From: a virus
IMG/VR virus record: IMGVR_UViG_3300044681_000388
Coordinates: 1-39,404 of that record
Strand: one strand, 5' to 3'
Length of the DNA: 39,404 nucleotides
Of this stretch, positions 19,166-38,144 are shown piece after piece; position 1 is the stretch's first letter, and every line of letters begins with the position of its first letter. The notes under the pieces were generated by a model. It was not told where the DNA came from, did not search any database, and saw only the letters and a program-made list of their open reading frames with translations. Both the position numbers and the translations under genes were made by a program.

Positions 19166-19166
19166 T

Positions 19167-20501: not shown

Positions 20502-20520
20502 CCCTAAAGACGGGAGAAAT

Positions 20521-20787
20521 ATGGACGATCAAGAAAACATTGACGATCCAGCAATCGTTGAAGTTGACCCCGAAATGGATGAATTGCGCAAGGTATTGCG
20601 TAATACCATGTCGGAAAAACTCATAACGAATTTCGTCATTATTGCCGAAGTTACCGATGAGGATGGTCAATCGCTGTCCCTGTCCGTATCTGACAGCATT
20701 ACGCCATGGCTGGCGTATGGGATGATTAACAGCGCTCTGGCGATGCTAGGGTCTGGAGAATACCAATTCCCTTCAACGGAAGAATGA
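20521..20787 (+). CDS. Hypothetical small acidic protein
   Basis: An 88-aa acidic protein with a strong ribosome-binding site. The first 20 residues are mostly D and E; a helix (MDELRKVLRNTMSEKL) is followed by strands (ITNFVIIAEVTDEDGQSLSL) and 'WLAYGMINSALAMLGSGEY'. The strand-then-helix pattern with 'TPWLAYGMINSAL' occurs in small phage and actinophage proteins of unknown function. It is the first gene behind the 20474 promoter and is followed by the holin candidate. Function unknown. Confidence 0.65.
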   Translation: MDDQENIDDPAIVEVDPEMDELRKVLRNTMSEKLITNFVIIAEVTDEDGQSLSLSVSDSITPWLAYGMINSALAMLGSGEYQFPSTEE

Positions 20788-20795
20788 GGCTAATA

Positions 20796-21032
20796 ATGGA
20801 TAAAAACATCAAAATGAACCTTGGTGACCAGGCGGTTAAGGGTGCAGTTCTCGGCGCTCTTGCGTACTTTGGCGACGCTTTCGGTTTGGATGCCACGCAG
20901 GTTGCGGTCGCCATGCCGGTTGCACTGACAATCCTCGCTTGGGTTTCTACGAAGATTGGTGACAAGGGCACGACAGTCTTGTTCCGTGTTGTCAAGCAAG
21001 CGGCAGCAGCACAGGCAAAGAAAAGCAAGTAG
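20796..21032 (+). CDS. Small membrane protein, holin candidate
   Basis: A 78-aa protein when started at ATG 20796, which has GAGG upstream; an ATG at 20784 in the same frame overlaps the previous stop and adds four residues. After MNLGDQAVKGAVLGALAYFG there is one strong hydrophobic segment, QVAVAMPVALTILAWVSTKI (about 38-57), and a basic, lysine-rich C-terminus (KQAAAAQAKKSK). Size, a single strong helix and a charged tail suit a class II/III-type holin, and it sits after the baseplate genes, but no endolysin is beside it in this window. It could also be another small membrane protein. Confidence 0.5.
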   Translation: MDKNIKMNLGDQAVKGAVLGALAYFGDAFGLDATQVAVAMPVALTILAWVSTKIGDKGTTVLFRVVKQAAAAQAKKSK

Positions 21033-21058
21033 TTTCAAGCCACGCGCATTTGCTACCT

Positions 21059-21088
21059 TATACTTGTAGACGACACAAAATGTCGTCT
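21059..21088 (+). promoter_or_regulatory. -10-like box followed by an 8-bp inverted repeat
   Basis: TATACT (21059-21064) is followed after three bases by a perfect inverted repeat, AGACGACA and TGTCGTCT (21068-21075 and 21081-21088) with a five-base loop CAAAA. No T-run follows, so it is not a normal terminator. It is placed where a transcript would begin, 19 bases before the fibre-cluster gene at 21107, so it could be an operator or a 5' mRNA hairpin. No convincing -35 is present. Confidence 0.5.
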
Positions 21089-21106
21089 CCGAGTGTGGGG
21101 TAGTAA

Positions 21107-21457
21107 ATGCTTGCTGGAAGGTACAACATAGTCTGTGACCAAGGGTCAACCTTTCAAAGGGTCATAGAGATTAAAGGTTTAGACAATTCTATTCTCAACC
21201 TTTCTGGATACACAGCCAGAATGCAGGTTCGTCGAGAAATTGACTCAACAACTACGCTGATTGAACTGACCACAGAAAACGGTCGAATCACCATTTACCC
21301 ATCCCTTGGAACGATTGAACTCAATCTCACCTCAACCGAAACTGCGGAACTGGCACGGGGCGGCTATTACGACTTGGAGATAATTGACACCTCCAGTGGG
21401 GATGTCCAGAAAGTACTTCGTGGAGAGTTCAGGCTTGAAAAAGAGGTCACCCGATGA
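21107..21457 (+). CDS. Hypothetical virion-associated protein (fibre-linked beta domain)
   Basis: A 116-aa beta-rich protein with the pattern of small phage proteins near tail fibres: 'YNIVCDQGSTFQRVIEIKG', 'LNLSGYTARMQVRREIDST', and 'YYDLEIIDTSSGDVQKVLRG'. I recall the 'G..f.r.i.....g.pi.L.gytarmqvR' motif as frequent in phage fibre clusters, of unknown biochemical role. It opens the adhesin block behind the 21059-21088 site. Its stop overlaps the next start (ATGA). Confidence 0.65.
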   Translation: MLAGRYNIVCDQGSTFQRVIEIKGLDNSILNLSGYTARMQVRREIDSTTTLIELTTENGRITIYPSLGTIELNLTSTETAELARGGYYDLEIIDTSSGDVQKVLRGEFRLEKEVTR

Positions 21458-21663
21458 CCACTCCAACACCCATCACTATTGGCGTGACTCTCCCTGATGG
21501 AAATTTTAATGCTGTAGTTGAAGATCAGAGAAACATTGTAACCATAAACGAAGAAACCCCCAATACGGTTATTGTTACCGTGCCAGGGATAAACGCCTCA
21601 ATTTATAGTGCTTCTATTGTTTACGGTAGCGGTGCGCCTTGGACTATTGAGGTTGAAATCTAA
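21454..21663 (+). CDS. Hypothetical 69-aa protein
   Basis: A 69-aa protein between two overlapping gene junctions (ATGA at its start, TAATG at its end), which makes it very likely to be translated. It is beta-strand-rich (ITIGVTLPDGNFNAVVEDQR, NTVIVTVPGINASIYSASIV) with no charged cluster or motif. It probably belongs to the fibre assembly, as its neighbours do; no function can be assigned. Confidence 0.6.
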   Translation: MTTPTPITIGVTLPDGNFNAVVEDQRNIVTINEETPNTVIVTVPGINASIYSASIVYGSGAPWTIEVEI

Positions 21664-22013
21664 TGCCCACATACATTCCGTCCGATTACGGCAATATCGG
21701 AGATATTTACATTGATGTTGAGACCGGAGATTTCTACGGTCCGAAGACTGAGAGTGGTTGGCCAGATACACCATTTTTTACGGCTTTAACATCTGTAACT
21801 GTTGATGCGGCGGTTCTAAATGACCGACATGTACATAGCCAACCAGTGGCGAGTGCTACTTGGGTGATTACCCATGCACTCGGAGGACGGCCATCAGTAA
21901 CGGTCGTTGACTCTGGTTTGACGAAAGTATACGGGGAAATAGTGTATGATAGTGACACACAAGTAAGAGTTATTTTTTCGGCTCCTTTCAGCGGTTTCGC
22001 GTATTTAACGTGA
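21663..22013 (+). CDS. Tail fibre-associated protein with 'HxLG.RPSV' domain
   Basis: A 116-aa protein. The N-terminus (YGNIGDIYIDVETGDFYGPK) is the short 'G.iY.d..tGdfYGPK' unit common in collagen-like phage fibres. The C-terminal part (HVHSQPVASATWVITHALGG then RPSVTVVDSGL and FSAPFSGFAYLT) is a small domain frequent at the ends of phage fibre and adhesin proteins. It is probably a virion decoration or fibre tip unit. It overlaps the previous gene by one base. Confidence 0.65.
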   Translation: MPTYIPSDYGNIGDIYIDVETGDFYGPKTESGWPDTPFFTALTSVTVDAAVLNDRHVHSQPVASATWVITHALGGRPSVTVVDSGLTKVYGEIVYDSDTQVRVIFSAPFSGFAYLT

Positions 22014-22021
22014 GGTAAATA

Positions 22022-23314
22022 ATGGCGCAAAAGTTCCTAACAAACCTTGATCTTAACCAGAACCAACTGGTTAATGCAACATTTGAGGTTCTTGCAACCG
22101 ACCCCAGCAGTGGGAACTTTGAGGGTCGCCTTATTTACAACTCCACCGAAGACACAATCAAGGTTTATTCGGGTTCAGCATGGCGGAAAATGCTCCATGA
22201 CGTCGTTGCTGGTGGCTCTTATACTGATGCGCTCACGATTTCTGAATCCAATGGGCAGATAACACTCACCCTAAACCTTGCTGACACCGACAGCGCTGGT
22301 CTTCTTTCAAGCACATTCTGGAATGACCTCAATGATGCGACCTCTGCTGCTACGGCAAGCAAACTCGTCAAGCGCGACGCCAATGGAAATATCAGCGTTG
22401 CCGACCCGACATCTGATTCGCATGCCGCAACCAAGGGCTATGTTGATGCCGCTCGTTCTGGTCTGGATGTTAAGCAGTCTGTTCGTGTTGCGACAACGAG
22501 CGCAATCAATATTGCGACAGATTTGGAAGACGGCGACACCATTGACGGTGTCACCCTTGCGACTGGTGATCGAGTCCTTGTCAAGAACCAGAGCACTGCC
22601 TCAGAAAACGGCATCTATGTTGTCGTCGCTTCTGGTGCGGCAAGCCGCTCAACGGATGCAGACAGCAATGCTGAAGTCACGGCAGGAATGTTCACCTTCG
22701 TTTCTGAAGGTTCAACCAATGCTGATTCGGGATGGGTTCTTACTACCAATGACACAATCACGCTTGGGAGCACCTCTCTTGACTTTGCACAGTTCTCTGG
22801 TGCTGGTCAAGTAACAGCAGGTGACGGTCTAACTAAGACCGGCAACACCCTTGATGTTGTTGGAACAACCGACAGAATCACAGTAAATGCTGACAGTGTT
22901 GATATTGCATCTACTTATGTTGGTCAATCAAGCATCACCACGCTCGGCACAATTTCCACGGGAACATGGGAAGCCACGGATGTTGGTGTCGCACATGGTG
23001 GTACTGGCGCCTCCACTGAATCTGGTGCCAGAACAAATTTGGCTTCTGCGTCGTCGGAAGCATCAGGTCGAACAACGAGCACACCGACACTTTCTCGTGT
23101 TTCCAAGCAGGGTTGTGCTGCGAGCGTGGGCGGTGTTTCAACAACGACCGTAACCCACAACTTCAACACTGTTGATGTCGTTGTTCAAGTTTACGAAGTT
23201 GCAACTGGCGCCACGGTAATCGGTGATGTAACACGAGCAAACTCAAATACGGTGTCAGTTGTTCTTAACGGAACTATTAGCGCGAACGACTACACCATCG
23301 TCGTCACGGGCTAA
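22022..23314 (+). CDS. Tail fibre protein
   Basis: A 430-aa fibre protein. It begins MAQKFLTNLDLNQNQLVNA, followed by the W-rich mini-module 'FEGRLIYNSTEDTIKVYSGS' AW. The middle has a domain common in phage fibres, with AARSGLDVKQSVRVATTSA, DGDTIDGVTLATGDRVLVK and QSTASENGIYVVVASG, then 'TDADSNAEVTAGMFTFVSEG'. The C-terminus has 'CAASVGGVSTTTVTHNFNTV' with VVVQVYEVATG, a beta-sandwich found at fibre ends. The region is threonine- and serine-rich throughout. It is the first large adhesin gene, likely receptor-binding or attached to a branching fibre. It shares its first five residues with the next fibre. Confidence 0.78.
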   Translation: MAQKFLTNLDLNQNQLVNATFEVLATDPSSGNFEGRLIYNSTEDTIKVYSGSAWRKMLHDVVAGGSYTDALTISESNGQITLTLNLADTDSAGLLSSTFWNDLNDATSAATASKLVKRDANGNISVADPTSDSHAATKGYVDAARSGLDVKQSVRVATTSAINIATDLEDGDTIDGVTLATGDRVLVKNQSTASENGIYVVVASGAASRSTDADSNAEVTAGMFTFVSEGSTNADSGWVLTTNDTITLGSTSLDFAQFSGAGQVTAGDGLTKTGNTLDVVGTTDRITVNADSVDIASTYVGQSSITTLGTISTGTWEATDVGVAHGGTGASTESGARTNLASASSEASGRTTSTPTLSRVSKQGCAASVGGVSTTTVTHNFNTVDVVVQVYEVATGATVIGDVTRANSNTVSVVLNGTISANDYTIVVTG

Positions 23315-23369: not shown

Positions 23370-25715
23370 GTGGCGCAAAAATTTACTGTACCTATCACTA
23401 TCAAGCAGTTGGCGTCTGCTGGCTCAGATGCGCTCACGGTTTTTGTAAACGGTGAAGTTTACGGTCGCGTAAAAATTGAGGCTGGCGGTCGCTTATCGTG
23501 GAGCGACGGCACTGGTGTCTATGACACAAATCTTTATCGTGATGGCGCAAATACGCTCGCCACTGACGACATCTTCAAGGCGCTCACGGCACTGGTTTCT
23601 CCGACAACCAATGGTGCTCCGTCGGTAAGCGTCCCAGATGGAGCGATTGCGGTTGATAACACAAACAACCGCCTATATTTCAGGTCAAACTCAACATGGC
23701 GTGTTGTTGAGGGTGGGGCAACGGTTTCCGCAACTGCTCCAAGCAACCCACTCGAAGGCGCTCTGTGGTTTGACACTAGCGATGACACGCTTTATATCCG
23801 TCAGGGAAGCGCATGGGTTGTCGCTGGAGGTGGCGGTGCTTCGGTAGAGGTTGGAGCAACTGCCCCTTCTTCCCCCAGTGAGGGGGATATGTGGTGGGAT
23901 TCCAACCTTCTTGAACTTTTCATTTACTACTCGTCAGCCTGGGTTCAGGTAACACCAAGTAGTGAATATTTTGACCTAGCAGACCTTGGCGACGTTTCCA
24001 GCACACCGCCAACAAATGGTCAAGTCCTCGTATTCAATAATTCAACTGGTGAGTATGAGCCGACAACTTTATCCACTAGCAGTTCACTTGATGGGCTAAC
24101 CGACACAACATTAACCAGCCCAACATCTGGGGAATTCCTTAAGTACAACGGAAGCGCATGGGTTAATGATGCAATTGACCTTGGAACAGACACAACAGGT
24201 AATTATGTTTCCGATGTAAGCGGAGGAACAGGTGTCACGGTTACCCACACACCAGGAGAAGGATCAACGCCATCGGTGGCGATTGGTCAGGATGTTGGGA
24301 CAACAGCGGACGTAACTTTCAATACGGTCACCGCAGACCTCACGGGGAATGCTGATACGGCAACTGCTCTACAGACTTCCAGGACGATTGAACTTACTGG
24401 TGATGTAACCGGTTCTGCATCGTTTGACGGAACAGCAAATGCGACATTGAGTGTCACGATTTCGTCCGACTCTGTCGCCCTCGGCACAGACACGACAGGT
24501 GACTATGTTCAGAACCTCGTCGCGGGTACTGGCGTCACGCTTGGTGCAAACTCGGGTGAAGGCGCAACACCAAGCATCGCCATCGGTCAAGATGTCGGAA
24601 CAACAGCCGACGTCACGTTCAACACCGTAACTGCCGACCTTACGGGTGACGTGACTGGAAATGCCGACACAGCAACCGCTCTTGAAACGGCACGGATAAT
24701 TGAACTTAGTGGAGATGTTTCTGGCTCGGCATCATTTGATGGAACATCAAACATCAATATCTCAACGATTGCAAATACTGCAAGCGTTGCAATTGGTGAA
24801 CTTAATGGTGTTGTAATTGATACGCCACTGCCCTATCAGGGTTTGATGTATGACGGAACAAATTGGGTCAACAGCAATATCCCGAATACTTATCTTGTAA
24901 GAAACAATACTGGTTCAACTTTGCTGAAGGGAACCCTGGTTTCCGCTTCTGGTGCAGAACCTAGTGGAAGAATTGATGTTCAACCCCACGAAACAACAGG
25001 TCTTCAGGACTCAGAACTTCGTGTAATGGGCATTGTCACAGCAAACATCAGCAATGGTGTTAATGGCGAAGTGATGAGTTTTGGAACACTTACCAATGTT
25101 GATACAAGAGGCAATGTTGAAAGCGCACTTGCAGTGGGAGATGAGACCTGGGCTGCTGGTGACATTCTCTATGCCCACCCAACCGTTGCTGGCAAGTTAA
25201 CCAAAGTAAGACCAACCCATGACTTGGCTGTTGCATTCATAACCATACGACACGCATCGTCTGGACAAATTGCAATAAGAATTATCCCAGGAAACAATCA
25301 CCTTGAATGGATGCACGATGTTTCATTGACATCAGCATCAGTAGGAGACTTCCTCAAGTACGACGGAACCTCCTGGGTGAATGACCCAATCAATCTTGGC
25401 ACCGACACCATTGGTAACTATGTGTCAGGTATTTCTGCTGGCACGGGAATAACCGTTACCCACACTCCTGGTGAAGGTTCTACAGCAACAATTGCAGTAA
25501 CCGCAAATACTTATCAGCCATCATTAGTTGTTTCTGACACGCTTCCATCAAGCCCAGTATCTGGTCAGTTCTGGTATGAATCTAATACTGGCAGAACTTT
25601 TGTGTACTACGACTCCTACTGGGTTGAAATCGGTGGACAGGGTGGACCACAGGGCCCTGCTGGGTCGGGTGGCGGCGGAGATTCAATATCGGCATTTCTT
25701 TTGATGGGAGCGTAA
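23370..25715 (+). CDS. Long tail fibre with LGTDTTG repeats and collagen-like end
   Basis: A 781-aa protein starting at GTG 23370 with TTGAGG upstream. Residues 1-100 are a domain with VPITIKQLASAGSDALTVFV. Then come two W-rich mini-modules ('APSNPLEGALWFDTSDDTLY', 'APSSPSEGDMWWDSN'), and a third near the end ('LPSSPVSGQFWYESNTGRTF'). The fibre repeats begin LGTDTTGNYV, LGTDTTGDYV and LGTDTIGNYV and contain TVTHTPGEGS, IGQDVGTTADVTFNTVTADL and DADTAT-like blocks. Three KYNGSAWVND-type linkers precede them. The end is collagen-like (GGQGGPQGPAGSGGGG). It is probably a trimeric fibre shaft with receptor-binding modules. Confidence 0.8.
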   Translation: MAQKFTVPITIKQLASAGSDALTVFVNGEVYGRVKIEAGGRLSWSDGTGVYDTNLYRDGANTLATDDIFKALTALVSPTTNGAPSVSVPDGAIAVDNTNNRLYFRSNSTWRVVEGGATVSATAPSNPLEGALWFDTSDDTLYIRQGSAWVVAGGGGASVEVGATAPSSPSEGDMWWDSNLLELFIYYSSAWVQVTPSSEYFDLADLGDVSSTPPTNGQVLVFNNSTGEYEPTTLSTSSSLDGLTDTTLTSPTSGEFLKYNGSAWVNDAIDLGTDTTGNYVSDVSGGTGVTVTHTPGEGSTPSVAIGQDVGTTADVTFNTVTADLTGNADTATALQTSRTIELTGDVTGSASFDGTANATLSVTISSDSVALGTDTTGDYVQNLVAGTGVTLGANSGEGATPSIAIGQDVGTTADVTFNTVTADLTGDVTGNADTATALETARIIELSGDVSGSASFDGTSNINISTIANTASVAIGELNGVVIDTPLPYQGLMYDGTNWVNSNIPNTYLVRNNTGSTLLKGTLVSASGAEPSGRIDVQPHETTGLQDSELRVMGIVTANISNGVNGEVMSFGTLTNVDTRGNVESALAVGDETWAAGDILYAHPTVAGKLTKVRPTHDLAVAFITIRHASSGQIAIRIIPGNNHLEWMHDVSLTSASVGDFLKYDGTSWVNDPINLGTDTIGNYVSGISAGTGITVTHTPGEGSTATIAVTANTYQPSLVVSDTLPSSPVSGQFWYESNTGRTFVYYDSYWVEIGGQGGPQGPAGSGGGGDSISAFLLMGA

Positions 25716-25718
25716 ATC

Positions 25719-26045
25719 ATGCCAACGACATACAAAGTACTAGGACAGTCGAATCCAGTAGCGGCATCAGATACAACTCTGTACACGGTTCCGGCTGCCA
25801 CTTCTACGGTCATCTCAACGATAAATGTTGCGAATCTTGGGACCTCTGGAACGTTCCGTATTGCGGTACGTGTTGCTGGTGCTTCCATTGCGAATGAGCA
25901 CTATCTCGCATATGACGTACCCCTGAATGCAAACGACTCGATTGCTTATACCTTGGGAATAACACTTGCCGCGACCGATGTGGTCACGGTTAGAGCGTCC
26001 AACACCTCATTTGCGTTTAACGCTTTTGGAAGCGAGATTTCGTGA
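25719..26045 (+). CDS. Small beta-sandwich virion protein, copy 1 of 3
   Basis: A 108-aa beta-rich protein (SNPVAASDTTLYTVPAATST, STINVANLGTSGTFRIAVRV, EHYLAYDVPLNANDSIAYT, GITLAATDVVTVRASN). The 'vp.n.s........l.a.D.v.v.as' arrangement recurs in the proteins at 31783 and 35083. Small proteins of this kind are common in fibre regions of aquatic phages; role unproven, perhaps as connectors or fibre-tip units. It starts three bases after the previous fibre's stop, and its end overlaps the next gene by four bases (GTGA). Confidence 0.62.
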   Translation: MPTTYKVLGQSNPVAASDTTLYTVPAATSTVISTINVANLGTSGTFRIAVRVAGASIANEHYLAYDVPLNANDSIAYTLGITLAATDVVTVRASNTSFAFNAFGSEIS

Positions 26046-28027
26046 TAACAAGGTCTTCTGCCCTTCCGCTAATTGCGGGTAGTGGTAAGTCCTATAACGC
26101 CGTGCCCGATAACTATGATGCTACTCCAGAAACTTGGGTGCGTCCATCCGACTGGCTGAGTATAACTACGCCAAGCGCAAATGAAAATAAGTTCGTAGGG
26201 TTAGTTGCCGTTTATGAAAACTCCACGAACTACATAGCACTTAACTTTTCTGCCACTGGCGGCTATACGGTCGACTGGGGCGACGGCTCAGCGCCAGTTA
26301 ATGTCGCAAGTGGGACAAAGGCTCAATACAACTATTCCTATTCATCACTGAATTCTGGTACATACTCCGCTCAGGGTTATCGTCAGGCAATAGTTACCGT
26401 GACGCCAACTACACCTGGTCAGGCGTTCACTTCGGTTAATCTCGCACTACGACATGGCGACATTGGCGCATCAGTAAGCGGAAACAACAATTGGCTGGAT
26501 ATTGCAGTATCGGCACCGAGCGCCACGCAAGTAATCTTTGCCACAACCCCTGGGACTTCGGGTGCGTCGTGCTCGATGCCGCTACTTGAGCACATCAATG
26601 TGGTTTCCCATGCAAGAACATCTTATATTTCGTTTTTTGCAAACTTGGAAACGCTCAAGTCTGTAGAACTTGCTGATTATGGAAACTGCACATCACTTGA
26701 ATTAGCGTTTTACTACTGCCGTCATCTACTATCAGTGCCCCAAATAAACACACAGTCATGCACTTCTTTTGACAGAACATTTCTTAATTGTTACTCACTT
26801 CGCAGTATACCTTTTATGAATACATCAGCGGCTACAACAATGTATCAAACTTTTTACGGTTGTCAGTCGTTGTCATCCGTCCCCTTGTTCGATACCGCAT
26901 CCGTTACAAGCATGTATGGCATGTTTTCTTACTGCAAGTCACTGGAATCTGTTCCTTTGTTTGATACGGCTTCGGTGACGAGCATGGGCACCATGTTCAG
27001 TGACTGTTATTCGCTTAAAACTGTCCCACTGTTTAATACTGCTTCGGTGACGAGCATGAGCAACATGTTTAATTCATGTCACGCCATAAAGAGTGTCCCA
27101 CTGTTTAATACTGCTTCGGTGACGAGCATGTCTTACATGTTCAGTGACTGTTATTCGCTTAAAACTGTCCCACTGTTTAATACCGCTTCAGTGACGAACA
27201 TGACTTACATGTTTGATGGATGTCAGACACTTACCGATATCCCACTGTTCAATACTGCGTCGGTTACGAACATGGCGTCTATGTTTGCTAGTTGTCATAG
27301 TTTGATTAATGTGCCACTGTTTGATACTGCTTCGGTGACGACGATGTCTGGCATGTTTTACAACACCTGGTCGCTGCGTACCATCCCGCAATTCAACACA
27401 TCAAATGTGACAATCATGTCAACCATGTTTCAGGGTTCCAATGTAGTGGTTATTCCAGAATTGCAAACGGAAAATGTCACAACATTCAGCAATATGCTCG
27501 CTTCGGCGTCCAATGTGCAGAGAATTAATGGGTTGAATTTATCCAAGACAGCAAACTCATCCGGAGGCAATCTTGGCTCAAGTGCACTCAACAACCTTGC
27601 GAGTGCCGTTCTCACTGGAATGCGCTTTAGCCAGTCAAATATTTTTGTAAACGGAAACATGGGGGCATCAGAACTTGACGGAATATATACTGCGCTCGCA
27701 GTTTTGAATCCAAATGTCACTAATGCCTCTGGCAACGGCACTACTGTTACTTACACGGTCAGCGATATCTCCGCATTCGTAGCGGCTCGAACCGTAACAA
27801 TGACTGGGATATCCCCATCTGCGTACAACCTCACTAACGTAACGGTCGCTTCCGTCGATACTGCCAACAGCACATTTACCGTGACGAATGCCGCAACAGG
27901 AACTTATGTATCTGGTGGTGTTGCCGCAATACAAGACAATAGGACAGTCGTTGTCAGCGGAAACCCTGGGACAGCAAGCGACAACCCAAGCATTGCAACG
28001 AATAAGGGATGGACGGTAACGGGATGA
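26042..28027 (+). CDS. BspA-like leucine-rich repeat adhesin (DUF285 type)
   Basis: A 661-aa protein starting at GTG 26042. Residues about 55-190 are a beta-rich N-terminal domain (VGLVAVYENSTNYIALNFSA; GGYTVDWGDGSAPVN). Residues 193-456 are eleven units of exactly 24 residues, and a shorter twelfth, with the BspA/DUF285 signature (SMSNMFNSCHAIKSVPLFNT). BspA-type repeats mediate surface binding in bacteria and protists. Position 10 of the unit is cysteine in nine consecutive units, which would stack as a ladder. The C-terminus has a beta-domain (NASGNGTTVTYTVSDISAFV, ARTVTMTGISPSAYNL). In a phage this is most likely a receptor-binding or virion decoration protein. Its stop overlaps the next start (ATGA). 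Confidence 0.85.
   Translation: MITRSSALPLIAGSGKSYNAVPDNYDATPETWVRPSDWLSITTPSANENKFVGLVAVYENSTNYIALNFSATGGYTVDWGDGSAPVNVASGTKAQYNYSYSSLNSGTYSAQGYRQAIVTVTPTTPGQAFTSVNLALRHGDIGASVSGNNNWLDIAVSAPSATQVIFATTPGTSGASCSMPLLEHINVVSHARTSYISFFANLETLKSVELADYGNCTSLELAFYYCRHLLSVPQINTQSCTSFDRTFLNCYSLRSIPFMNTSAATTMYQTFYGCQSLSSVPLFDTASVTSMYGMFSYCKSLESVPLFDTASVTSMGTMFSDCYSLKTVPLFNTASVTSMSNMFNSCHAIKSVPLFNTASVTSMSYMFSDCYSLKTVPLFNTASVTNMTYMFDGCQTLTDIPLFNTASVTNMASMFASCHSLINVPLFDTASVTTMSGMFYNTWSLRTIPQFNTSNVTIMSTMFQGSNVVVIPELQTENVTTFSNMLASASNVQRINGLNLSKTANSSGGNLGSSALNNLASAVLTGMRFSQSNIFVNGNMGASELDGIYTALAVLNPNVTNASGNGTTVTYTVSDISAFVAARTVTMTGISPSAYNLTNVTVASVDTANSTFTVTNAATGTYVSGGVAAIQDNRTVVVSGNPGTASDNPSIATNKGWTVTG
26618..27409 (+). 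repeat. Eleven tandem 72-bp units coding for BspA-like repeats
   Basis: Units begin at 26618, 26690, 26762, 26834, 26906, 26978, 27050, 27122, 27194, 27266 and 27338, all exactly 72 bases apart without indels. Units 26978 and 27122 share 47 identical bases over 26993-27039 and 27137-27183, 144 bases apart. The outer units are more diverged. The repeat can grow or shrink by recombination or slippage. Confidence 0.85.
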
Positions 28028-28218
28028 GCGCTGGATTCTACAAATATGAAGACCAAAACCTTTATTTTGGTGCGAACTATGTTCTCAATGCCGACTACGA
28101 GTTGCGTAAAGAAACAAAAGATGACCACACCTACCCTGTGGACGGCTGGTACTGGTTTGACTCGCAAGAAAAAGCACACGAGTTCTTTGGAATAGATGAG
28201 GAAAACAATGGCAATTGA
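28024..28218 (+). CDS. Small fibre-linked hypothetical protein
   Basis: A 64-aa protein whose ATG at 28024 overlaps the previous stop (ATGA). An in-frame ATG at 28009 is possible but lies deeper in the adhesin gene. The composition is aromatic and acidic (GFYKYEDQNLYFGANYVLNA; YPVDGWYWFDSQEKAHEFFG), a pattern I associate with small proteins beside fibre genes in aquatic phages, sometimes suggested to be fibre assembly chaperones. It ends 11 bases inside the next fibre gene. Function not proven. Confidence 0.62.
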   Translation: MSAGFYKYEDQNLYFGANYVLNADYELRKETKDDHTYPVDGWYWFDSQEKAHEFFGIDEENNGN

Positions 28219-31200
28219 TTTTCCAAACTCGCCATCTTTGAACGATACACATACAGTCGATTCAAAAACCTGGCTGTATGACGGTGAAAAGTGGGTTCTT
28301 TCTGCGGAAATTACTCTCGGCACTGATACAACAGGCGACTACGTTGAGTTGCTCGTTGCTGGAACCGGAGTTACCCTCTCTAACAATTCTGGGGAAGGCG
28401 CCACCCCGACAGTCGCAATCGGCCAAGATGTTGGAACGTCAGCCTCTGTAACTTTTGCTGAGTTGACCACAACTGCAGACGTAACCGTGGGGGGGAATCT
28501 TACGGTCAACGGAACAACGACAACCCTTAATACGGAAACGCTTTCCATTGAGGACAATATCATTGTTCTAAATAGCAATGTTTCGGCTTCACCATCAACC
28601 AATGCTGGAATAGAAGTTGAACGTGGGACATCTGACAATGTTGCTATTAGGTGGAACGAAACAACCGACAAATGGGAACTAACAAATGACGGTTCATCCT
28701 ACGGTGTAATCGCTGAACTTGGCACTATTGCTCTTGGCACAGACACCACGGGCAACTACATGGTGGACCTTGCTGAGGGAACTGGTGTCACCATCACCCA
28801 CACGCCAGGTGAAGCATCAACTGGAACAATCGCAATTGGTCAAGACGTTGGAACAACGGCAGATGTAACTTTCAATACCGTCACGGCAGATGTGACTGGT
28901 AACCTGACAGGCAATGTCACGGGCAACGCCGACACTGCCACCACACTGCAAACTTCCCGAACTATTTCGTTGGGTGGAGACCTTTCGGGTTCTGCTTCCT
29001 TCAATGGCTCGGCTGATGTAACTATCACCGCAACTATTGGTGCAGACTCTGTTGCTCTTGGTACTGATACGACAGGTAATTACGTTCAGAATCTTGTTGC
29101 TGGCACGGGCATAACACTCACCAATAACACTGGTGAAGGTGCGACACCGACAGTTGCGGTTACTGCCAACACCTACGAAGCATTTGGCGCTGTCGCCACC
29201 CACGAATCCGACACAACGAACATTCACGGAATAACAGACACCGCCGCACTCGTCACCTTGGCTGGAACGCAGACACTCACGAATAAGACGCTCACTAGCC
29301 CTGTCATCACTGGCGTGTCTCCGCAAATCACCCTTGCTGGAGATTTGACTGGCTCAGTAACCCTGACCGACCTTGGAAACGGAACACTTACGGCAACTAT
29401 TGCTGCCAATTCTGTCGCTCTCGGAACCGATACAACTGGAAACTATGTCAACGATGTAACCGCAGGTACGGGTGTCACCGTTACACATACACCCGGTGAA
29501 GGCTCCAGCCCGACTATTGCGATTGGGCAGGCAGTTGGAACGACAAGCAACGTTACCTTCAACACTGTTACAGCCGACCTGACTGGTGATGTAACTGGCA
29601 ACGCAAGCACCGCAACGACACTCGCTACAGCACGGACGATTTCACTCGGTGGCGACCTAAATGGTTCGGCATCCTTCGACGGCTCAACCGATGTAACAAT
29701 AACAGCGACAATCGGTGCCAACTCCGTAGCCCTCGGAACAGATACGACAGGAAATTACGTCAACGATGTCACTGCTGGCACTGGTGTCACCGTTACACAC
29801 ACACCAGGGGAGGGCTCTAGTCCAACCGTCGCAATCGGTCAGGCAGTAGCCACATCCGACAGCCCGACATTCGCAGGCGCAACTCTTGATGCCGTCCAAA
29901 TCGGAATCACCGCCGCTGGTGAAATCGACACATCGTCTGGCAACCTCACGATTGACTCTGCTGGCGGAACTGTCACGGTTGACGACAACCTGATTGTTTC
30001 TGGCGACCTCACCGTCTCTGGAACGACAACGACGGTAAATACCGAGACAATCAATCTGGCCGACAACATCATCACGCTCAACAGCAACGAGACTGGAACC
30101 CCGAGCCAAAATGCAGGCCTTGAAGTTGAGCGTGGTACTTCAACGAATGTGCAACTGCGCTGGAACGAAACCAGCGACAAGTGGGAACTTACCGCCGACG
30201 GCTCAACGTATTACGACATCGCTACCGAGTCGTATGTAAATGCACAGACAATCACATCGTTGGATGACATTGGCGATGTAACAATCACCTCTGCTACTTC
30301 GGGAGATTTCCTGAAATGGAACGGTACCGCATGGGTAAATGACCCAGTGAACTTGGGTACCGACACAACTGGAGATTATGTCGGTTCTCTCGTTGCCGGA
30401 ACCGGTGTCACCCTCACGAATAACTCAGGTGAAGGTGCAACACCGACCGTGGCAATCGGTCAAGCCGTTGGCACAACTGACAATGTCACATTCAACACCG
30501 TTACGGCAGACCTAACTGGCAATGCTGATACGGCGACAGCACTAGCAACCTCACGAACAATCTCTCTCGGTGGAGACTTGTCTGGTTCTGCATCTTTTGA
30601 CGGTTCTGCAGATGTAACCATCACCGCCACGATTGGAGCAAATTCTGTTGCTCTCGGAACGGATACCACCGGAAACTACATGGGGGATGTCTCTGCTGGA
30701 ACGGGTATCTCTGTAACGCACACACCAGGCGAGGGTTCCACGGCAACGGTTGCACTCAATGCAACATTGGACAACCTCAGCAATGTGAACGCACCATCAC
30801 CTTCGGATGGTCAGTTCCTCAAGTATGTCTCTGCCTCTTCTGAATGGCAACCAGCGGCAATCCCCACCATCAACAACCTTGACGACGTTGGCGATGTAAC
30901 CATCACGTCCGCAACATCGGGTGATTTCTTGAAGTGGAACGGTTCAGCATGGGTTAACGACCCAGTGAACCTTGGAACCGACACCACGGGCGATTATGTG
31001 CAATCACTGGTCGCTGGAACAGGCATCTCTCTTGCCAACAACTCTGGCGAAGGTGCGACCCCAACGGTAACACTGAACGCAGCGATTGATGACCTTTCCG
31101 ATGTGTCTGCGGCAGCCCCAACGAGCGGCGATGTTCTTTCTTGGAACGGTTCTTCGTGGGTATCGTCTGCTCCGTCAAGCGGTGCATCACTCACGGTTTC

Positions 31201-31771
31201 TGCAACAGCGCCATCGTCCCCATCTGAAGGTGACATGTGGTTTGAGTCCGATACTGGTCGGACATACGTGTACTACGACAGCGCATGGGTAGAAATTGGA
31301 GCCATTTCCGCAGGTTCTCGTGTCTCAATTTCTGCAAACGCACCGTCCAACCCGACGGCTGGAGACACATGGTTTGACTCAGATACTGCTCAAACCTTCA
31401 TCTACTACGACAGCCAGTGGATTGAAATTGGTGCCTCGGCAATGGCTGCCACAGTTGCTGGAACAGCCCCAAGCAATGCGATTGCTGGTCAAATATGGTT
31501 TGACTCTGACACTGGCGGCACATACGTTTATTTCAACTCCACATGGGTAGAGGTTGGTGCATCTGCCCTTGACACACTCCTCAACACGATTGAGGCAAAG
31601 GGCGACATCCTTGTCGGAACCGCAGACAATGCGGTAGACAACCTGACGGTTGGCTCAAACGGTCAGATTCTTGTGGCAGACTCAGCGGAGGCAACTGGTC
31701 TAAAATGGGAAACGCCAAACTACGCATCAACAGGTAAAGCCATCGCAATGTCGATTGTGTTTGGTTCCTAG
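28208..31771 (+). CDS. Giant repeat tail fibre (1187 aa)
   Basis: The largest gene here. ATG 28208 follows GAGGA; an in-frame ATG at 28196 overlaps the previous gene more and lacks a site. It begins MAIDFPNSPSLNDTHTVDSK with TWLYDGEKWVL, the shared docking-like mini-module. Eight fibre repeats follow, each starting LGTDTTG, with TVTHTPGEGSSPT, FNTVTADLTGDVTGNA, TARTISLGGDL and FDGSADVTITATIGANSVAL. Two longer units contain INLADNIITLNSNETGTPSQ. Linkers 'DIGDVTITSATSGDFLKWNG' occur twice. The C-terminus has three W-rich modules ('APSSPSEGDMWFESDTGRTY' and similar) and a unique end, ATGLKWETPNYASTGKA. Probably a long fibre shaft. It ends 12 bases before the next start. Confidence 0.85.
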   Translation: MAIDFPNSPSLNDTHTVDSKTWLYDGEKWVLSAEITLGTDTTGDYVELLVAGTGVTLSNNSGEGATPTVAIGQDVGTSASVTFAELTTTADVTVGGNLTVNGTTTTLNTETLSIEDNIIVLNSNVSASPSTNAGIEVERGTSDNVAIRWNETTDKWELTNDGSSYGVIAELGTIALGTDTTGNYMVDLAEGTGVTITHTPGEASTGTIAIGQDVGTTADVTFNTVTADVTGNLTGNVTGNADTATTLQTSRTISLGGDLSGSASFNGSADVTITATIGADSVALGTDTTGNYVQNLVAGTGITLTNNTGEGATPTVAVTANTYEAFGAVATHESDTTNIHGITDTAALVTLAGTQTLTNKTLTSPVITGVSPQITLAGDLTGSVTLTDLGNGTLTATIAANSVALGTDTTGNYVNDVTAGTGVTVTHTPGEGSSPTIAIGQAVGTTSNVTFNTVTADLTGDVTGNASTATTLATARTISLGGDLNGSASFDGSTDVTITATIGANSVALGTDTTGNYVNDVTAGTGVTVTHTPGEGSSPTVAIGQAVATSDSPTFAGATLDAVQIGITAAGEIDTSSGNLTIDSAGGTVTVDDNLIVSGDLTVSGTTTTVNTETINLADNIITLNSNETGTPSQNAGLEVERGTSTNVQLRWNETSDKWELTADGSTYYDIATESYVNAQTITSLDDIGDVTITSATSGDFLKWNGTAWVNDPVNLGTDTTGDYVGSLVAGTGVTLTNNSGEGATPTVAIGQAVGTTDNVTFNTVTADLTGNADTATALATSRTISLGGDLSGSASFDGSADVTITATIGANSVALGTDTTGNYMGDVSAGTGISVTHTPGEGSTATVALNATLDNLSNVNAPSPSDGQFLKYVSASSEWQPAAIPTINNLDDVGDVTITSATSGDFLKWNGSAWVNDPVNLGTDTTGDYVQSLVAGTGISLANNSGEGATPTVTLNAAIDDLSDVSAAAPTSGDVLSWNGSSWVSSAPSSGASLTVSATAPSSPSEGDMWFESDTGRTYVYYDSAWVEIGAISAGSRVSISANAPSNPTAGDTWFDSDTAQTFIYYDSQWIEIGASAMAATVAGTAPSNAIAGQIWFDSDTGGTYVYFNSTWVEVGASALDTLLNTIEAKGDILVGTADNAVDNLTVGSNGQILVADSAEATGLKWETPNYASTGKAIAMSIVFGS
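28315..31060 (+). repeat. Protein-level fibre repeats (8 LGTDTTG units) with synonymous divergence
   Basis: The LGTDTTG signature occurs at about 28315, 28733, 29057, 29420, 29732, 30353, 30653 and 30971. Protein sequences are nearly identical between units, but the DNA differs at many third codon positions. In the pair 29414-29536 and 29726-29848, 24 of 41 codons differ synonymously and one changes the amino acid (isoleucine to valine). Confidence 0.85.
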
Positions 31772-32138: not shown

Positions 32139-33089
32139 ATGGGTCGTAGGGGCGGTCGTATTGGACCATATCAATCAGTTGGTATTTCGTCAGCATCTGG
32201 TATTTGGGATTTGGCTACTGTTCAACAGGAAAGAGGTCGAAACAACTGGGCTGGGTCAACAATTGCAATTGAGTACTTAGTCATTGCTGGAGGGGGTGGT
32301 GGTGGAAGTAGACACTCTGGCGGCGCTGGTGCTGGTGGGTATCGTTCATCCGTAGTTGGTGAATCATCTGGTGGTGGGGCAAGTGCAGAAGCAGTATTTA
32401 ATGGACTTCCTGGTTCAACGTATTCAATAACCGTAGGTGGCGGAGGTGCCGCAAATACAAATGGCGGTGCGGTCGGTCCTGGCAGTGCTGGTGCGAGTAG
32501 CAGTTTTTCAACAATTTCATCAGTTGGCGGCGGAACTTCTGGTATCGGTTGGCAGACTGGTGGTTCTGGTGGTTCTGGTGGTGGCAGTTCTGGTGCTGGA
32601 ACAGCAAATCAAGGATATGCGGGAGGGTCTGGTTCTGGCGGCTACTATGCCGCTGGTGGCGGTGGTGCTGGTGCTGTCGGAGGGAATACTCAGGGCGGAC
32701 CGCAATACGCAGGAAACGGCGGCGCTGGTTTAAATTCTTCAATAACTGGTTCTTCCGTTGGCAGAGCAGGCGGTGGCGGTGGCGGTTCATACGTTGGAGA
32801 AGGTGCTGGCGGAAATGGAGGCTCGGCAACGCACGGTGGCGGGGGTGGCGCTGGAGCAAATCGTTTTCCTGCATCGGCTGGCACGGCAAACACTGGTGGC
32901 GGTGGTGGCGGCGGTGGTGGAAGCGGCGGAAGCGCTGGTGGAAACGGTGGTTCTGGTGTGGTGATTTTGCGTTGGTCAACGTCCTACAGCGCTGCAACAT
33001 CAACAACAGGTGCATCAGTCACATACAACAACGGCGCTGGCGGTTACCACGTATACACATTTAATGCTTCGGGCTCTATCACGCTTTAG
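32139..33089 (+). CDS. Glycine-rich adhesin, polyglycine domain 1
   Basis: A 316-aa protein. N-terminal docking region (MGRRGGRIGPYQSVGISSAS), then IEYLVIAGGGGGGSRHSGGA with GAGGYRSSVVGESSGGGASA. Next is a long glycine/serine/alanine region made of short GGG runs separated by turns. It ends SGVVILRWSTSYSA, then GGYHVYTFNASGSITL. This is the plan of polyglycine type II adhesins such as gp38 of Salmonella phage S16 (Gly_rich_2 class), where packed glycine helices hold variable receptor-binding loops. Likely a fibre-tip adhesin. Start two bases after the previous stop. Confidence 0.78.
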   Translation: MGRRGGRIGPYQSVGISSASGIWDLATVQQERGRNNWAGSTIAIEYLVIAGGGGGGSRHSGGAGAGGYRSSVVGESSGGGASAEAVFNGLPGSTYSITVGGGGAANTNGGAVGPGSAGASSSFSTISSVGGGTSGIGWQTGGSGGSGGGSSGAGTANQGYAGGSGSGGYYAAGGGGAGAVGGNTQGGPQYAGNGGAGLNSSITGSSVGRAGGGGGGSYVGEGAGGNGGSATHGGGGGAGANRFPASAGTANTGGGGGGGGGSGGSAGGNGGSGVVILRWSTSYSAATSTTGASVTYNNGAGGYHVYTFNASGSITL

Positions 33090-33136: not shown

Positions 33137-33505
33137 ATGGCTCATTTTGCCCAAATCAATGCCGACAACGTGGTGACACAGGTAATCGTCGTCTCAAACG
33201 ATGATTGCGCTGGTGGGGACTACCCGACGAGCGATGCACCTGGTGCGGCATTCTGCAACAATCTGCTCGGTGGCACATGGAAGCAAACCTCATACAACGG
33301 AAACTTCCGCAAGCGTTACGCAGGAATCGGTTACACATTCAATGCCGACCTTGATGCGTTCATTGCCCCACAGCCCTATCCCTCTTGGACGCTGAACGAA
33401 GAAACTGCCGACTGGGAAGCGCCCGTGGCACGACCAGCAGAAGGCATGTGGGCATGGAATGAAGCGAATCAGGAGTGGGATGAAGTCGCATCGCCAGGGG
33501 CGTAA
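33137..33505 (+). CDS. Conserved cyanophage-like virion-region protein
   Basis: A 122-aa protein with a strong CAGGAGAG. It matches a small protein I recall from marine and freshwater cyanophages: AHFAQINADNVVTQVIVVSN, FCNNLLGGTWKQTSYNGNFR, KRYAGIGYTFNADLDAFIAP, and 'QPYPSWTLNEETADWEAPV'. Aromatic spacing W-Y-W is repeated to the end (MWAWNEANQEWDEV). It is frequent beside fibre genes, with unknown function; suggested to be structural. The protein ends three bases before the next GTG. Confidence 0.75.
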   Translation: MAHFAQINADNVVTQVIVVSNDDCAGGDYPTSDAPGAAFCNNLLGGTWKQTSYNGNFRKRYAGIGYTFNADLDAFIAPQPYPSWTLNEETADWEAPVARPAEGMWAWNEANQEWDEVASPGA

Positions 33506-33508: not shown

Positions 33509-34702
33509 GTGGCGCTCTCGTTCCCTGCTAATCCTTCGGTAAACGACACATACACGGAGGGAAGCCGTACCTGGAAATGGAACGGCACTAAGTGGGAACT
33601 TGTCATCAGCACGCTTGTTGCTGGTTCGGTATCTACTGCTGAGATAAACAACGGCGCTGTCACTACGGCAAAACTTGCAAGTGGTGCTGTTACATCAGCA
33701 AAAGTTGGCTCAGATGTAAACGTGGTTACAGTTTGCACCAGTTCGACAAGACCTGGCTCACCATTTACTGGTCAAGCAATTTTTGAGACCGATACGAACA
33801 AGATGAAGGTATGGCTTGGGAGTCAGTGGTCACTAGGCACACAGCATTTCACTCCTGTAAATATTGAGTACCTAGTCATTGCTGGTGGTGGCGGCGGCGG
33901 GGCATGGGCTTCTGGAGTAATAAATGGCGGTGGTGGTGGTGCTGGTGGATACAGAAACTCGGTAAGCGGTGAAACAACTGGTGGTGGCGGTCCTGCCGAA
34001 AACACATTGAACATCGCCGCAGGAACATATGCGATAACTGTCGGAGGTGGCGGTGCTGCAGGGCGAGGCAAGGGTGTAGATAGTTCTATTTCTGGACCTG
34101 GAATTACAACAGTCACCGCAGAAGGGGGCGGTGGGGGCGGTGATGCATATGTGGCTTATGCTGGCGCATCTGGTGGTTCTGGTGGCGGTGGCGGTGGAAC
34201 TTCTGCTGGCGGTCAGGCTGGCGGGGCAGCAAGCACTTCTCCAACGCAGGGATATGCAGGGAATGCCAGTATTGCAAATTATTGGGCTGGCGGTGGAGGC
34301 GGTGCTGGTGGTTTGGGTGGAGTGGCTACACAAGCCGCTGGTGGAAACGGCTTGAGCAGTTCTATTACTGGTACGGCTGTAATGCGGGGCGGCGGTGGTG
34401 GTGGTGGTTCCAATACTACAAGAGGTGCAGGCGGTTCAAGCAATACTGCTGGAGGTGGTCGAGGCTCATTAAATGGCGATGCACTTTCTCTTGCTGGAAC
34501 TGCAAACACTGGCGGTGGTGGTGGCGGCGGCTCTGGCGATGGTGGAAAGGGTGGTGGTTCTGGAATCGTTATTATTCGCTACTTGACCGCTGATGCGAGC
34601 GCCTACACAATCACAGGCGGAACAAAGGTTGTTGGTCCAGCAGGAGCAACTTCTTACACAGTTCACACATTCACGTCTAGTGGAAGTTTGGTGGTGGCAT
34701 AA
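33509..34702 (+). CDS. Tail adhesin: W-rich modules plus polyglycine domain 2
   Basis: A 397-aa protein starting at GTG 33509. It begins with the shared mini-module MALSFPANPSVNDTYTEGSR (TWKWNGTKWELV), a spacer STAEINNGAVTTAKLASGAV, and a second module, SSTRPGSPFTGQAIFETDTN with KVWLGSQWSLG. Then IEYLVIAGGGGGG opens the polyglycine domain, with GAGGYRNSVSGETTGGGG and TLNIAAGTYAITVGGGGAAG. It ends SGIVIIRYLTADASA and YTVHTFTSSGSLVVA. The layout is docking module, link and adhesin, so it is probably a receptor-binding tip. Its stop overlaps the next start (TAATG). Confidence 0.78.
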   Translation: MALSFPANPSVNDTYTEGSRTWKWNGTKWELVISTLVAGSVSTAEINNGAVTTAKLASGAVTSAKVGSDVNVVTVCTSSTRPGSPFTGQAIFETDTNKMKVWLGSQWSLGTQHFTPVNIEYLVIAGGGGGGAWASGVINGGGGGAGGYRNSVSGETTGGGGPAENTLNIAAGTYAITVGGGGAAGRGKGVDSSISGPGITTVTAEGGGGGGDAYVAYAGASGGSGGGGGGTSAGGQAGGAASTSPTQGYAGNASIANYWAGGGGGAGGLGGVATQAAGGNGLSSSITGTAVMRGGGGGGGSNTTRGAGGSSNTAGGGRGSLNGDALSLAGTANTGGGGGGGSGDGGKGGGSGIVIIRYLTADASAYTITGGTKVVGPAGATSYTVHTFTSSGSLVVA

Positions 34703-35079
34703 TGGCTATCGATTTCCCCAACTCCCCCACAAACGGCGACCTGTTCTCTGCTGGTGGCAAAAACTGGCAGTACAACGGCACCGCTTGGGTACTACAAGGC
34801 ATCGTCCCCTATGTACGGCTCCTAGATGACGTAGGTGACGTAACAATCACCTCAGCAACGTCGGGGGACTTCCTTAAATGGAACGGATCGGCGTGGGTTA
34901 ATGACACCATTCCGACTATCAACAACTTGAACGACGTAGGTGACGTAACGATTACCTCTGCCGCATCTGGAGAGTTTCTCAAATGGAACGGAAGTGCTTG
35001 GGTCAATGCCGTCGCCTCCACCGATGTAATGACAGACACCAAGAATGCGGCAATAATCACTATGGATATAGGAGCGTAA
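34702..35079 (+). CDS. Short fibre/docking protein with DVGDVTITSA repeats
   Basis: A 125-aa protein overlapping the previous stop by one base. It begins MAIDFPNSPTNGDLFSAGGK with NWQYNGTAWVLQ (docking mini-module), then two copies of 'DVGDVTITSATSGDFLKWNG', the same linker unit that appears in the giant fibre at 28208. The last residues (TKNAAIITMDIGA) resemble the ends of other fibres. It looks like a cut-down version of the giant fibre: docking module and linkers without the shaft. Possibly a fibre attachment part or a remnant of module shuffling. Confidence 0.7.
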   Translation: MAIDFPNSPTNGDLFSAGGKNWQYNGTAWVLQGIVPYVRLLDDVGDVTITSATSGDFLKWNGSAWVNDTIPTINNLNDVGDVTITSAASGEFLKWNGSAWVNAVASTDVMTDTKNAAIITMDIGA

Positions 35080-35424: not shown

Positions 35425-36375
35425 ATGGGCGTTTCCACACCGTATGGCGTTCAAGGTCTGAAGAACTATGTAAGAGTCACCAAGCCTACGAGCATTGAAT
35501 ATCTGCTTGTTGGCGGTGGTGGAGCAAGTAGTGCTTCGAATGGTGGTGGCGGAGGTGGTGGCGGTGTTCTGTCTGGAACTACATCTGTTACTGGCGGTTC
35601 TGCATACACAATAACTATTGGTGGTGGCGGGTCTGGTGCTGGTTCAACTGGAGCAAATAATGTCAAAGGCAATGACGGGTCAGACACGATTGCTTTTTCT
35701 TTGACTGCTGGTGGCGGTGGTGCAGGCAACAGCCTAAACAACAGCGCTGGTGGTTCAAATGGACGAGCAAGCAATGGTTCTGGTGGCGGTGGGTCGTTGA
35801 CAAACAACGGTACAACTGCTGCTCATAATGCTGGTTCTGGAAATGGAACAGGGAAAAACGGAGGCGCTGGATTTGGCGACGCTGGTTCGGGTGGCGGAGG
35901 TGGTGCTGGTGTTGCTGGAACTGCTGGCACATCAACAACTGGCGGTGCTGGTGGAAATGGTGTTCAAAATTCAATAAACGGAACAAACTTGTACTGGGCT
36001 GGTGGTGGCGGTGGGACAAGTAATGGAACTGCAGGGAATGGCGGTCTTGGTGGTGGAGGTGGCGGAGCAACCAATATTGGAACACCTGGTCAAGGCGGTG
36101 GGTCGGCACTTAACTCTGGCGGCAATGGTGGTACTGGTACTGGGAATGACGGCGGAAACGGCGGAGACAATACTGGTGGAGGTGGTGGTGGGTCTGGTTG
36201 TCAGATGAATGGCACAGCATCGGCAATCGGTGCAAACGGTGGTTCTGGTGTAGTAATTATCAAATATCCAGATATTTACGATGCTGCAGCCTCTACGACT
36301 GGTTCTGCATCGCTGAGCACGGTAAACGGATACAAAATATATACATTCACAACTAGCGGAAGCATCACCTTCTAA
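35425..36375 (+). CDS. Glycine-rich adhesin, polyglycine domain 3
   Basis: A 316-aa protein beginning MGVSTPYGVQGLKNYVRVTK followed by SIEYLLVGGGGASSASNGGG and SVTGGSAYTITIGGGGSGA. The remainder alternates GGGG runs with asparagine/serine/threonine turns (NSLNNSAGGSNGRASNGSGG), closing with SGVVIIKYPDIYDAAA and NGYKIYTFTTSGSITF. The loops are asparagine-richer than in its siblings, so a different binding specificity is likely. Its stop overlaps the next start (TAATG). Same polyglycine type II helix plan as the others. Confidence 0.78.
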   Translation: MGVSTPYGVQGLKNYVRVTKPTSIEYLLVGGGGASSASNGGGGGGGGVLSGTTSVTGGSAYTITIGGGGSGAGSTGANNVKGNDGSDTIAFSLTAGGGGAGNSLNNSAGGSNGRASNGSGGGGSLTNNGTTAAHNAGSGNGTGKNGGAGFGDAGSGGGGGAGVAGTAGTSTTGGAGGNGVQNSINGTNLYWAGGGGGTSNGTAGNGGLGGGGGGATNIGTPGQGGGSALNSGGNGGTGTGNDGGNGGDNTGGGGGGSGCQMNGTASAIGANGGSGVVIIKYPDIYDAAASTTGSASLSTVNGYKIYTFTTSGSITF

Positions 36376-38144
36376 TGAGTATCTCAGGCGCACGTAAACC
36401 ACGACTCGCCACAGAGTACGGTATTGCATCCGGTGGTACAGAATCAGATATCACCGTTTCTGGTGTCTCGTACAAACTTCATACATTTACGGCAACAGGT
36501 ACGCTTTCGGTTACTCAACCCGGTTGGTTTGATGTGCTCGTTTTTGCTGGTGGCGGTGGCGGTGGTGGAACATCAAGCACCCTTTCCGCTGGCGGAGGTG
36601 GTGCTGGTGGTTTATTGTCAAGCACGGTATATCTATCTGGAAATACAACTATTTCTATTGGTGGCGGAGGTTCTGGCGGACAGGGTGGTGCAACATATAA
36701 CAGTGAGGGGTCATCAAGTGTTATTGGCTCTTACCTATCTGTAGCAGGTGGTGGCAGGGGTGCAGACTCAAACAATGTTTGGGGTGCAAACTTTGCAAGC
36801 AGCGGCGGCTCTGGTGGTGGCGGTCTTGGCAGGCAAGATGGTGGAAGTTTTGGCACCCATGCTGGAGCGTCAATGGCAAACAATGTCAGTGGGCAGAGTG
36901 GTGGAACTGGTTCAACTGGTAGCGGCGGCGCTTCTGGTGGTGGAGGCGGGGGTGGTTTTGGGGCTGTTGGGTCAAACGGAACAACGGCTGTTGGCGGTGC
37001 TGGGGGCTCTGGATATGATGTCTCAACATTTATTGGTGGCTCAACCCTCTATAGGGCAGCAGGTGGAGGAGGGGGAGGGACAACAACTGGCGGTGCTGGT
37101 GGTTCTTCTATCGGCGGTGCTGGTGGTTCAAATACTGTTGGGGCAAGTGCATCCTCAAATACTGCTTCTGGCGGAGGCGGTGCAGGTGGTGGAGCAACAA
37201 GAGCAGGTGGTAACGGTGGTTCAGGAATCGTCTATATCCGCAGAAGAGTGTCTGGTTCTGCTGTGGGAACATTGACGTATCAGGCAATTTTGAACAGCGT
37301 TGAATATCTAGTAATCGCTGGCGGCGGCGGTGGTGGTGGACGACATGGCGGCGGTGGTGGTGCAGGCGGATATCGTTCGTCGGTGGGTGGAGAATCTTCT
37401 GGTGGCGGTGCTTCTGCTGAAGATAAATTAGTTTTAACTGTTGGAACTACATACTCAATAAGTGTTGGTGCGGGCGGACCTGGCGGTACTGCGAACAATA
37501 ACGGAACACTCCCTAGAGCAACATCTGGTAGCAACAGTTCTGCTTTTGGTATTACATCAACTGGCGGCGGTGCAGGTGGAAACGGAAATATTGCTGGTGA
37601 AGCGAATGGAATCACCGGCGGTTCTGGTGGTGGCAGTGTTCCGTCTGGAACCGGTGCCGCTGGTACTGCGAATCAGGGGTATGCGGGAGGAAATGGCGGC
37701 AGTACATATCTCGGTGGCGGTGGAGGTGGTGCATCTGCTGCTGGTTCAAATTACTCTGGTTCGACTGCAGGCAATGGTGGAAATGGAGTTGCATCAAGCA
37801 TCACTGGTTCTTCTATAACTCGTGCCGGGGGTGGCGGAGGTGGCGGATGGACTGGCAACACTGCTGGAACTGGCGGTTCTGGTGGTGGTGGTGCTGGTGT
37901 TGCCAACTCTGGAACAAAAGCAACAAGTGGCACTGCCAACACTGGTAGCGGTGGCGGAGGTGGGGGCACAGACTCTGCCCCGAATGGCGGTGGTGGTGAT
38001 GGTGGCGCAGGTGTCGTCATCGTCCGTTACCCGACAACAAACGCCACTGGTCTATCGGTAACTGGCGGAACGATTACAACATCGGGCAGTTACACCATTC
38101 ATACATTCAATGCAAGCGGAACCTTCACGGTGGCACGGGCATGA
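36375..38144 (+). CDS. Double polyglycine adhesin, domains 4 and 5
   Basis: A 589-aa protein made of two tandem adhesin domains. It begins with a non-glycine N-terminus (SISGARKPRLATEYGIASGG) and a strand SYKLHTFTATGTLSV. The first domain opens FDVLVFAGGGGGGGTSSTLS and closes GGSGIVYIRRRVSGSA. The second opens VEYLVIAGGGGGGGRHGGGG, has GAGGYRSSVGGESSGGGASA, and closes 'GAGVVIVRYPTTNATGL' then IHTFNASGTFTVARA. The second domain is very similar to the one in the 32139 gene (YRSSV.GESSGGGASAE), so it is probably a recent duplicate or transfer between adhesins. The fusion gives one polypeptide two binding tips. Confidence 0.78.
   Translation: MSISGARKPRLATEYGIASGGTESDITVSGVSYKLHTFTATGTLSVTQPGWFDVLVFAGGGGGGGTSSTLSAGGGGAGGLLSSTVYLSGNTTISIGGGGSGGQGGATYNSEGSSSVIGSYLSVAGGGRGADSNNVWGANFASSGGSGGGGLGRQDGGSFGTHAGASMANNVSGQSGGTGSTGSGGASGGGGGGGFGAVGSNGTTAVGGAGGSGYDVSTFIGGSTLYRAAGGGGGGTTTGGAGGSSIGGAGGSNTVGASASSNTASGGGGAGGGATRAGGNGGSGIVYIRRRVSGSAVGTLTYQAILNSVEYLVIAGGGGGGGRHGGGGGAGGYRSSVGGESSGGGASAEDKLVLTVGTTYSISVGAGGPGGTANNNGTLPRATSGSNSSAFGITSTGGGAGGNGNIAGEANGITGGSGGGSVPSGTGAAGTANQGYAGGNGGSTYLGGGGGGASAAGSNYSGSTAGNGGNGVASSITGSSITRAGGGGGGGWTGNTAGTGGSGGGGAGVANSGTKATSGTANTGSGGGGGGTDSAPNGGGGDGGAGVVIVRYPTTNATGLSVTGGTITTSGSYTIHTFNASGTFTVARA

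Follow-up and report, generated by a model that had tools for sequence, protein, structure and literature searches.

Conserved tail-fibre modules with saturated synonymous sites, shared among environmental phages

We have analyzed the repeat-bearing fibre genes of a 39.4 kb viral record, a marine tailed-phage contig that carries a sheath gene; this whole stretch of 39,404 nucleotides is referred to here as the window. Upstream of the fibre genes are a tail sheath gene (at 9245) and a baseplate wedge gene (at 17990), which places them in a tail and structural gene cluster. A megablast search with the window gave no match among isolate phages. The giant gene A holds the repeats noted in an earlier sequence-only reading of this DNA, and several of its stretches match tail-fibre families with which it was compared (PHROGs 356, 9729, 7389 and 23820). 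The Rad52-type annealer proposed in that reading does exist, as a Pfam match in the left part of the window. The genes concerned are as follows.

2979-3668, plus strand: annealer of the Rad52/22 family (PF04098, E 7.5e-11)
3601-4425, plus strand: PD-(D/E)XK nuclease (PF12705, E 1.2e-31), overlapping the annealer gene and a possible partner exonuclease
23370-25715, plus strand: fibre gene C, 781 aa, upstream of gene A and with the same module types
28196-31771, plus strand: giant tail-fibre gene A, 1191 aa (ORF; PHROGs tail fibre / minor tail protein, best E 3.8e-37)
34702-35079, plus strand: short fibre-like gene D; a third module, DDVGDVTITSATSGDFLKWNGSAWVND, occurs twice in it and is present in genes A and C too

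A glycine-rich C-terminal domain (phrog_2295) is common to four other genes (32139-33089, 33509-34702, 35425-36375 and 36375-38144), which form a second paralogous adhesin-like set in the window. Positions 4967-6100 hold a phosphoadenosine phosphosulfate reductase gene, likely an auxiliary metabolic gene.

Two modules were resolved by profiles (HMM) in genes A and C. The B1 module (LGTDTTGNYV...AIGQAV) spans 39 aa and the B2 module (VTFNTVTADLTG...VTITATI) about 55 aa; gene A has 8 copies of B1 and 3 of B2, gene C has 3 of B1 and 2 of B2. Their positions are listed below.

24180-24296, plus strand: B1, gene C (HMM)
24312-24467, plus strand: B2, gene C (HMM)
24480-24596, plus strand: B1, gene C (HMM)
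24612-24764, plus strand: B2, gene C, with a sharp mosaic junction within it at 24668 (HMM)
25395-25508, plus strand: B1, gene C (HMM)
28316-28432, plus strand: B1 copy 1, gene A, 39 aa (HMM)
28733-28849, plus strand: B1 copy 2, gene A, with the right mosaic junction relative to L008 at its start (HMM)
28865-29047, plus strand: B2 copy 1, gene A, about 55 aa (HMM)
29057-29170, plus strand: B1 copy 3, gene A (HMM)
29420-29536, plus strand: B1 copy 4, gene A, first member of the pair cited in the earlier reading
29552-29722, plus strand: B2 copy 2, gene A (HMM)
29732-29848, plus strand: B1 copy 5, gene A, second member of the cited pair (HMM)
30353-30469, plus strand: B1 copy 6, gene A (HMM)
30485-30643, plus strand: B2 copy 3, gene A (HMM; also matched to Dec directly by phmmer, E 1.2e-5)
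30653-30766, plus strand: B1 copy 7, gene A (HMM)
30971-31087, plus strand: B1 copy 8, gene A (HMM)

B1 and B2 were found in dozens of environmental phage contigs and in some bacterial or archaeal MAG contigs. The family set comprised about 600 candidate stretches, and 79 viral loci were kept. Pfam and NCBIfam searches gave no hit to the module that passed the cut-off, and a tblastn search of phages with the bare module gave no match, probably through masking as low complexity. The analysis points to B1/B2 as a fibre module that is widespread, and strictly conserved, in phages from the environment. B1 also occurs in long open frames of L182, L185, L187, L211 and other MAG loci, on contigs binned as Patescibacteria/Saccharibacteria and others; these are candidate viral contigs or host surface proteins.

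Genes A and C encode tail-fibre proteins built from B1 and B2, most likely forming a trimeric beta-structured shaft. This role is likely because B2 matches the C-terminal stalk of the phage L decoration protein Dec (6e3c): the B2 profile aligns to Dec residues 90-134 with E 6e-10. As a monomer, Dec lacks structure in this segment, for which a trimeric three-stranded beta-helix based on T4 gp34 has been modelled (PMC6449081). The homology to Dec is confined to B2, at the profile level and for the single sequence of copy 3, and a search for a solved relative of B1 found none. An AlphaFold monomer model of B1-B2-B1 was poor (pLDDT 67, pTM 0.26), so that the proposed shaft fold is taken from the sequence similarity of B2 only. 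Dec differs in being a capsid decoration protein with a single such segment, whereas here the segment recurs along the fibre, alternating with B1.

A close relative, the 114 kb contig L007/L008/L009, served for comparison. A single L008 gene of 1931 aa joins the start of gene C to the C-terminal part of gene A, and the intervening part of the window is substituted:

24668-28745, plus strand: segment replaced in L008 by other fibre sequence of about 1.4 kb; includes the BspA-like gene (26042-28027)

About 4 kb, BspA-like gene included, thus separates two fibre genes that are fused in L008. Within a B2 module, at position 24668, identity to L008 is lost abruptly, and it returns where a B1 module begins, at about 28727-28745; these breakpoints place the recombination junctions inside modules, in register. 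Among other contig pairs, both partners had the same type of module at 15 of 39 junctions; compared with a background module coverage of 26%, this is not a significant enrichment. Upstream of the fibre genes, synonymous divergence from L007/L008 is 0-0.02 in genes up to 16290, rises to 1.3-2.1 in the baseplate genes (17990-20453) and returns to 0 at 21107-23314. This jump within 15499-23314 is a sharp allelic replacement of the baseplate block.

The sequence-only reading had described the fibre units as almost identical in protein with most third positions changed, and its count for the pair at 29414 and 29726 (24 synonymous differences and 1 replacement in 41 codons) is exact. Near-identity is not the general rule, as protein identity is 65-90% for most pairs of units; the cited pair is the most extreme, and its full alignment of 84 codons contains 24 replacements. 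Independent draws from the gene's own codon usage predict 26.6 +/- 2.9 differences for the cited pair and 24 of 40 are observed. The 24 differences thus amount to full synonymous saturation and to no more than chance, with dS about 2.2 and, at that saturated dS, a dN/dS of 0.006. Pooled over all B1 pairs of the window, synonymous divergence reaches 0.968 of expectation, compared with 0.940 against other phages. The contrast drawn earlier to the BspA-like gene stands, although "near-identical DNA" was too strong for the latter, whose units match at 75-83% with exact runs of at most 48 bp.

The proposal that the scrambling is itself selected, since it would prevent the deletion of units by homologous recombination via the phage's Rad52-type annealer, can be judged against the same kind of null. 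Gene A contains 3 repeated 15-mers, where synonymous shuffles give 4.3, and its longest exact internal repeat is 17 bp against 16.4 in codon shuffles. Its codon diversity lies within the range of the window's other genes, and its non-repeat parts behave alike. The 17 bp repeat is shorter than the 23-27 bp minimum segment of Red-beta (PMC3945230), the annealer is encoded nearby, and the number of units is the same as in L008 over 1017 aligned codons, all of which would suit selection against deletion; the agreement with the shuffles and the ordinary codon choice of the cited pair argue against it.

The 79 loci allow the same comparison across the family. Within-gene B1 pairs stand at 0.92-0.95 of the saturated expectation at every protein identity. 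Compared with pairs drawn from unrelated contigs, the within-gene values are 0.932 against 0.921 (protein identity at least 70%), 0.926 against 0.910 (80%) and 0.916 against 0.880 (90%); the excess is only 1-4 points, with bootstrap intervals that overlap or touch. Nor are adjacent units more scrambled than distant ones, as the two differ inconsistently (0.936 against 0.920 at identity of at least 80%, 0.908 against 0.936 at 60-80%). For the units of 55 fibre genes, codon shuffles predict 7.1 pairs with an exact shared run of at least 18 bp; 27 are observed, the longest runs reaching 32-35 bp, and this excess is the opposite of avoidance. The one isolate phage available as an assembly control, S-CBS4, has too few units, with observed/expected ratios of 0.73 (1 B1 pair) and 0.85 (16 B2 pairs, pooled). 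Selected scrambling failed every test able to show it: synonymous differences do not exceed those of random codons, nor meaningfully those between unrelated phages, exact runs are not in short supply, and adjacent units are not scrambled more than distant ones. We consider it very improbable. An attractive idea, naturally selected codon scrambling, is thus removed by a simple null that can be used for any repeat gene.

Orthologue comparison gives the same picture. Over 1017 codons aligned to L008, gene A has dS 0.59 and dN/dS 0.033 (0.030 within units, 0.026 outside), values that reflect purifying selection. Ordinary genes compared with the same relative mostly give dN/dS of 0.019-0.083 where dS is informative (for example 0.032 for the gene at 16290-17276 and 0.019 for that at 33137-33505); higher values, up to 0.36, come from a few genes that are adhesin-like or aligned only in part. 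Scrambling is accordingly not peculiar to the repeats, as ordinary non-repeat genes, at 0.02-0.08, are like the units; this is the outcome that the sequence-only reading had itself named as a refutation. The units align to L008 without gaps throughout the 1017 codons, and thus no unit has been gained or lost.

Modules are also shared between phages at the protein level while their DNA differs. The 39-aa peptide of B1 copy 4 is identical in 8 contigs, the window included, and is encoded by 7 DNA versions that differ at 16-27 of 39 codons. The unit most closely related to a given one sits in another phage in 304 of 330 cases. The units might alternatively be recent duplicates homogenised by gene conversion, as some within-gene pairs are highly identical in protein. 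This was rejected, with next to no probability left to it: conversion would copy codons too, yet synonymous sites are saturated, and the nearest relatives of the units lie in other phages.

The reading that we favour, at a probability of about 0.85, is that these are very old and tightly constrained fibre-shaft modules, saturated in their codons and exchanged among phages. It agrees with the first of the two explanations offered by the sequence-only reading, ancient units under strong protein-level selection, which is borne out by the saturated paralogues, the orthologue dN/dS of 0.03 and the identical modules in unrelated phages. Strict amino-acid selection on very old modules would hold the protein fixed while synonymous sites drift to saturation. 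The copies within a gene are not recent tandem duplicates, but modules that circulate among phages by mosaic recombination, some exchange junctions falling inside modules and in register; the annealer may drive this exchange. Any resistance of the repeats to deletion would be a by-product of divergence. The saturated divergence may incidentally stabilise the array, because Rad52-like phage recombinases tolerate divergence and Red-beta requires the minimum segment given above (PMC3945230). The mechanism is an ordinary one. Tail fibres are often fast-evolving, which sits awkwardly with the strict constraint on B1.

Several known systems are similar in part. Modular phage tail fibres share the PHROGs tail-fibre matches and the mosaic exchange of parts between phages; the literature searched gave no description of module identity coupled to saturated synonymous sites in unrelated phages. 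In protein repeats that evolve by birth and death, orthologous repeats are strongly conserved, as here, and copies are reported to diverge faster after duplication (PMC5120217), whereas the cited pair exhibits no such acceleration and young copies are absent. Repetitive genes have also been codon-scrambled by engineering (e.g. PMC12365220), and the products resemble these units in having the same protein repeats with different codons; here the divergence agrees with passive saturation, and no designed or selected excess was detected.

The puzzle that is left is a measurable one: young within-gene copies of a module are almost never seen. Among within-gene B1 pairs of at least 80% protein identity, 1 of 133 (36 genes) lies below 0.6 of the expected synonymous divergence, and among B2 pairs of at least 80% identity 0 of 28 has a young synonymous divergence. 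A young relative of a B1 unit was found in another contig for 159 of 336 units and in its own for 2. As the unit pairs are non-independent, such counts do not amount to formal probabilities. In the same collection, BspA-like LRR genes keep many young pairs, at 0.17-0.36 of expectation (0.17 at identity of at least 90%), which come mostly from few contigs. No clean single-unit deletion or duplication was found in 57 contig pairs of close relatives (34 kb aligned), a method that complex events escape.

The near absence of young B1 and B2 pairs, set beside the young pairs of the LRR genes, could mean that codons are not selected but that identical copies are lost while still young, through deletion by the annealer or through selection against unstable genomes, so that only diverged copies persist. 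Rare duplication of whole modules explains the missing pairs equally well, and both fit the data; the few contigs behind the LRR pairs weaken that comparison. Metagenome assembly could moreover collapse exact recent copies, and such collapse would hide exact copies but hardly those of intermediate age. Some fibre genes also retain near-identical short arrays (e.g. VTGN and TAELNILDGVTSS runs), over spans of at most 158 bp. On balance we regard such removal as unlikely. A more speculative extension, which we hold to be quite unlikely, is that in phages with relaxed-fidelity annealers fresh internal duplicates are never retained by fibre genes, which lengthen only by importing, from other phages, codon-diverged versions of the same module; synonymous divergence would in that case filter what can enter the repeat architecture, and individual codons would not be selected. 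In the fibre ORF of L051, near-identical 39-bp tandem repeats (VTSSTAELNILDG) are present at about 2184-2366 of the ORF, and fresh short-period arrays thus do persist in this fibre family.
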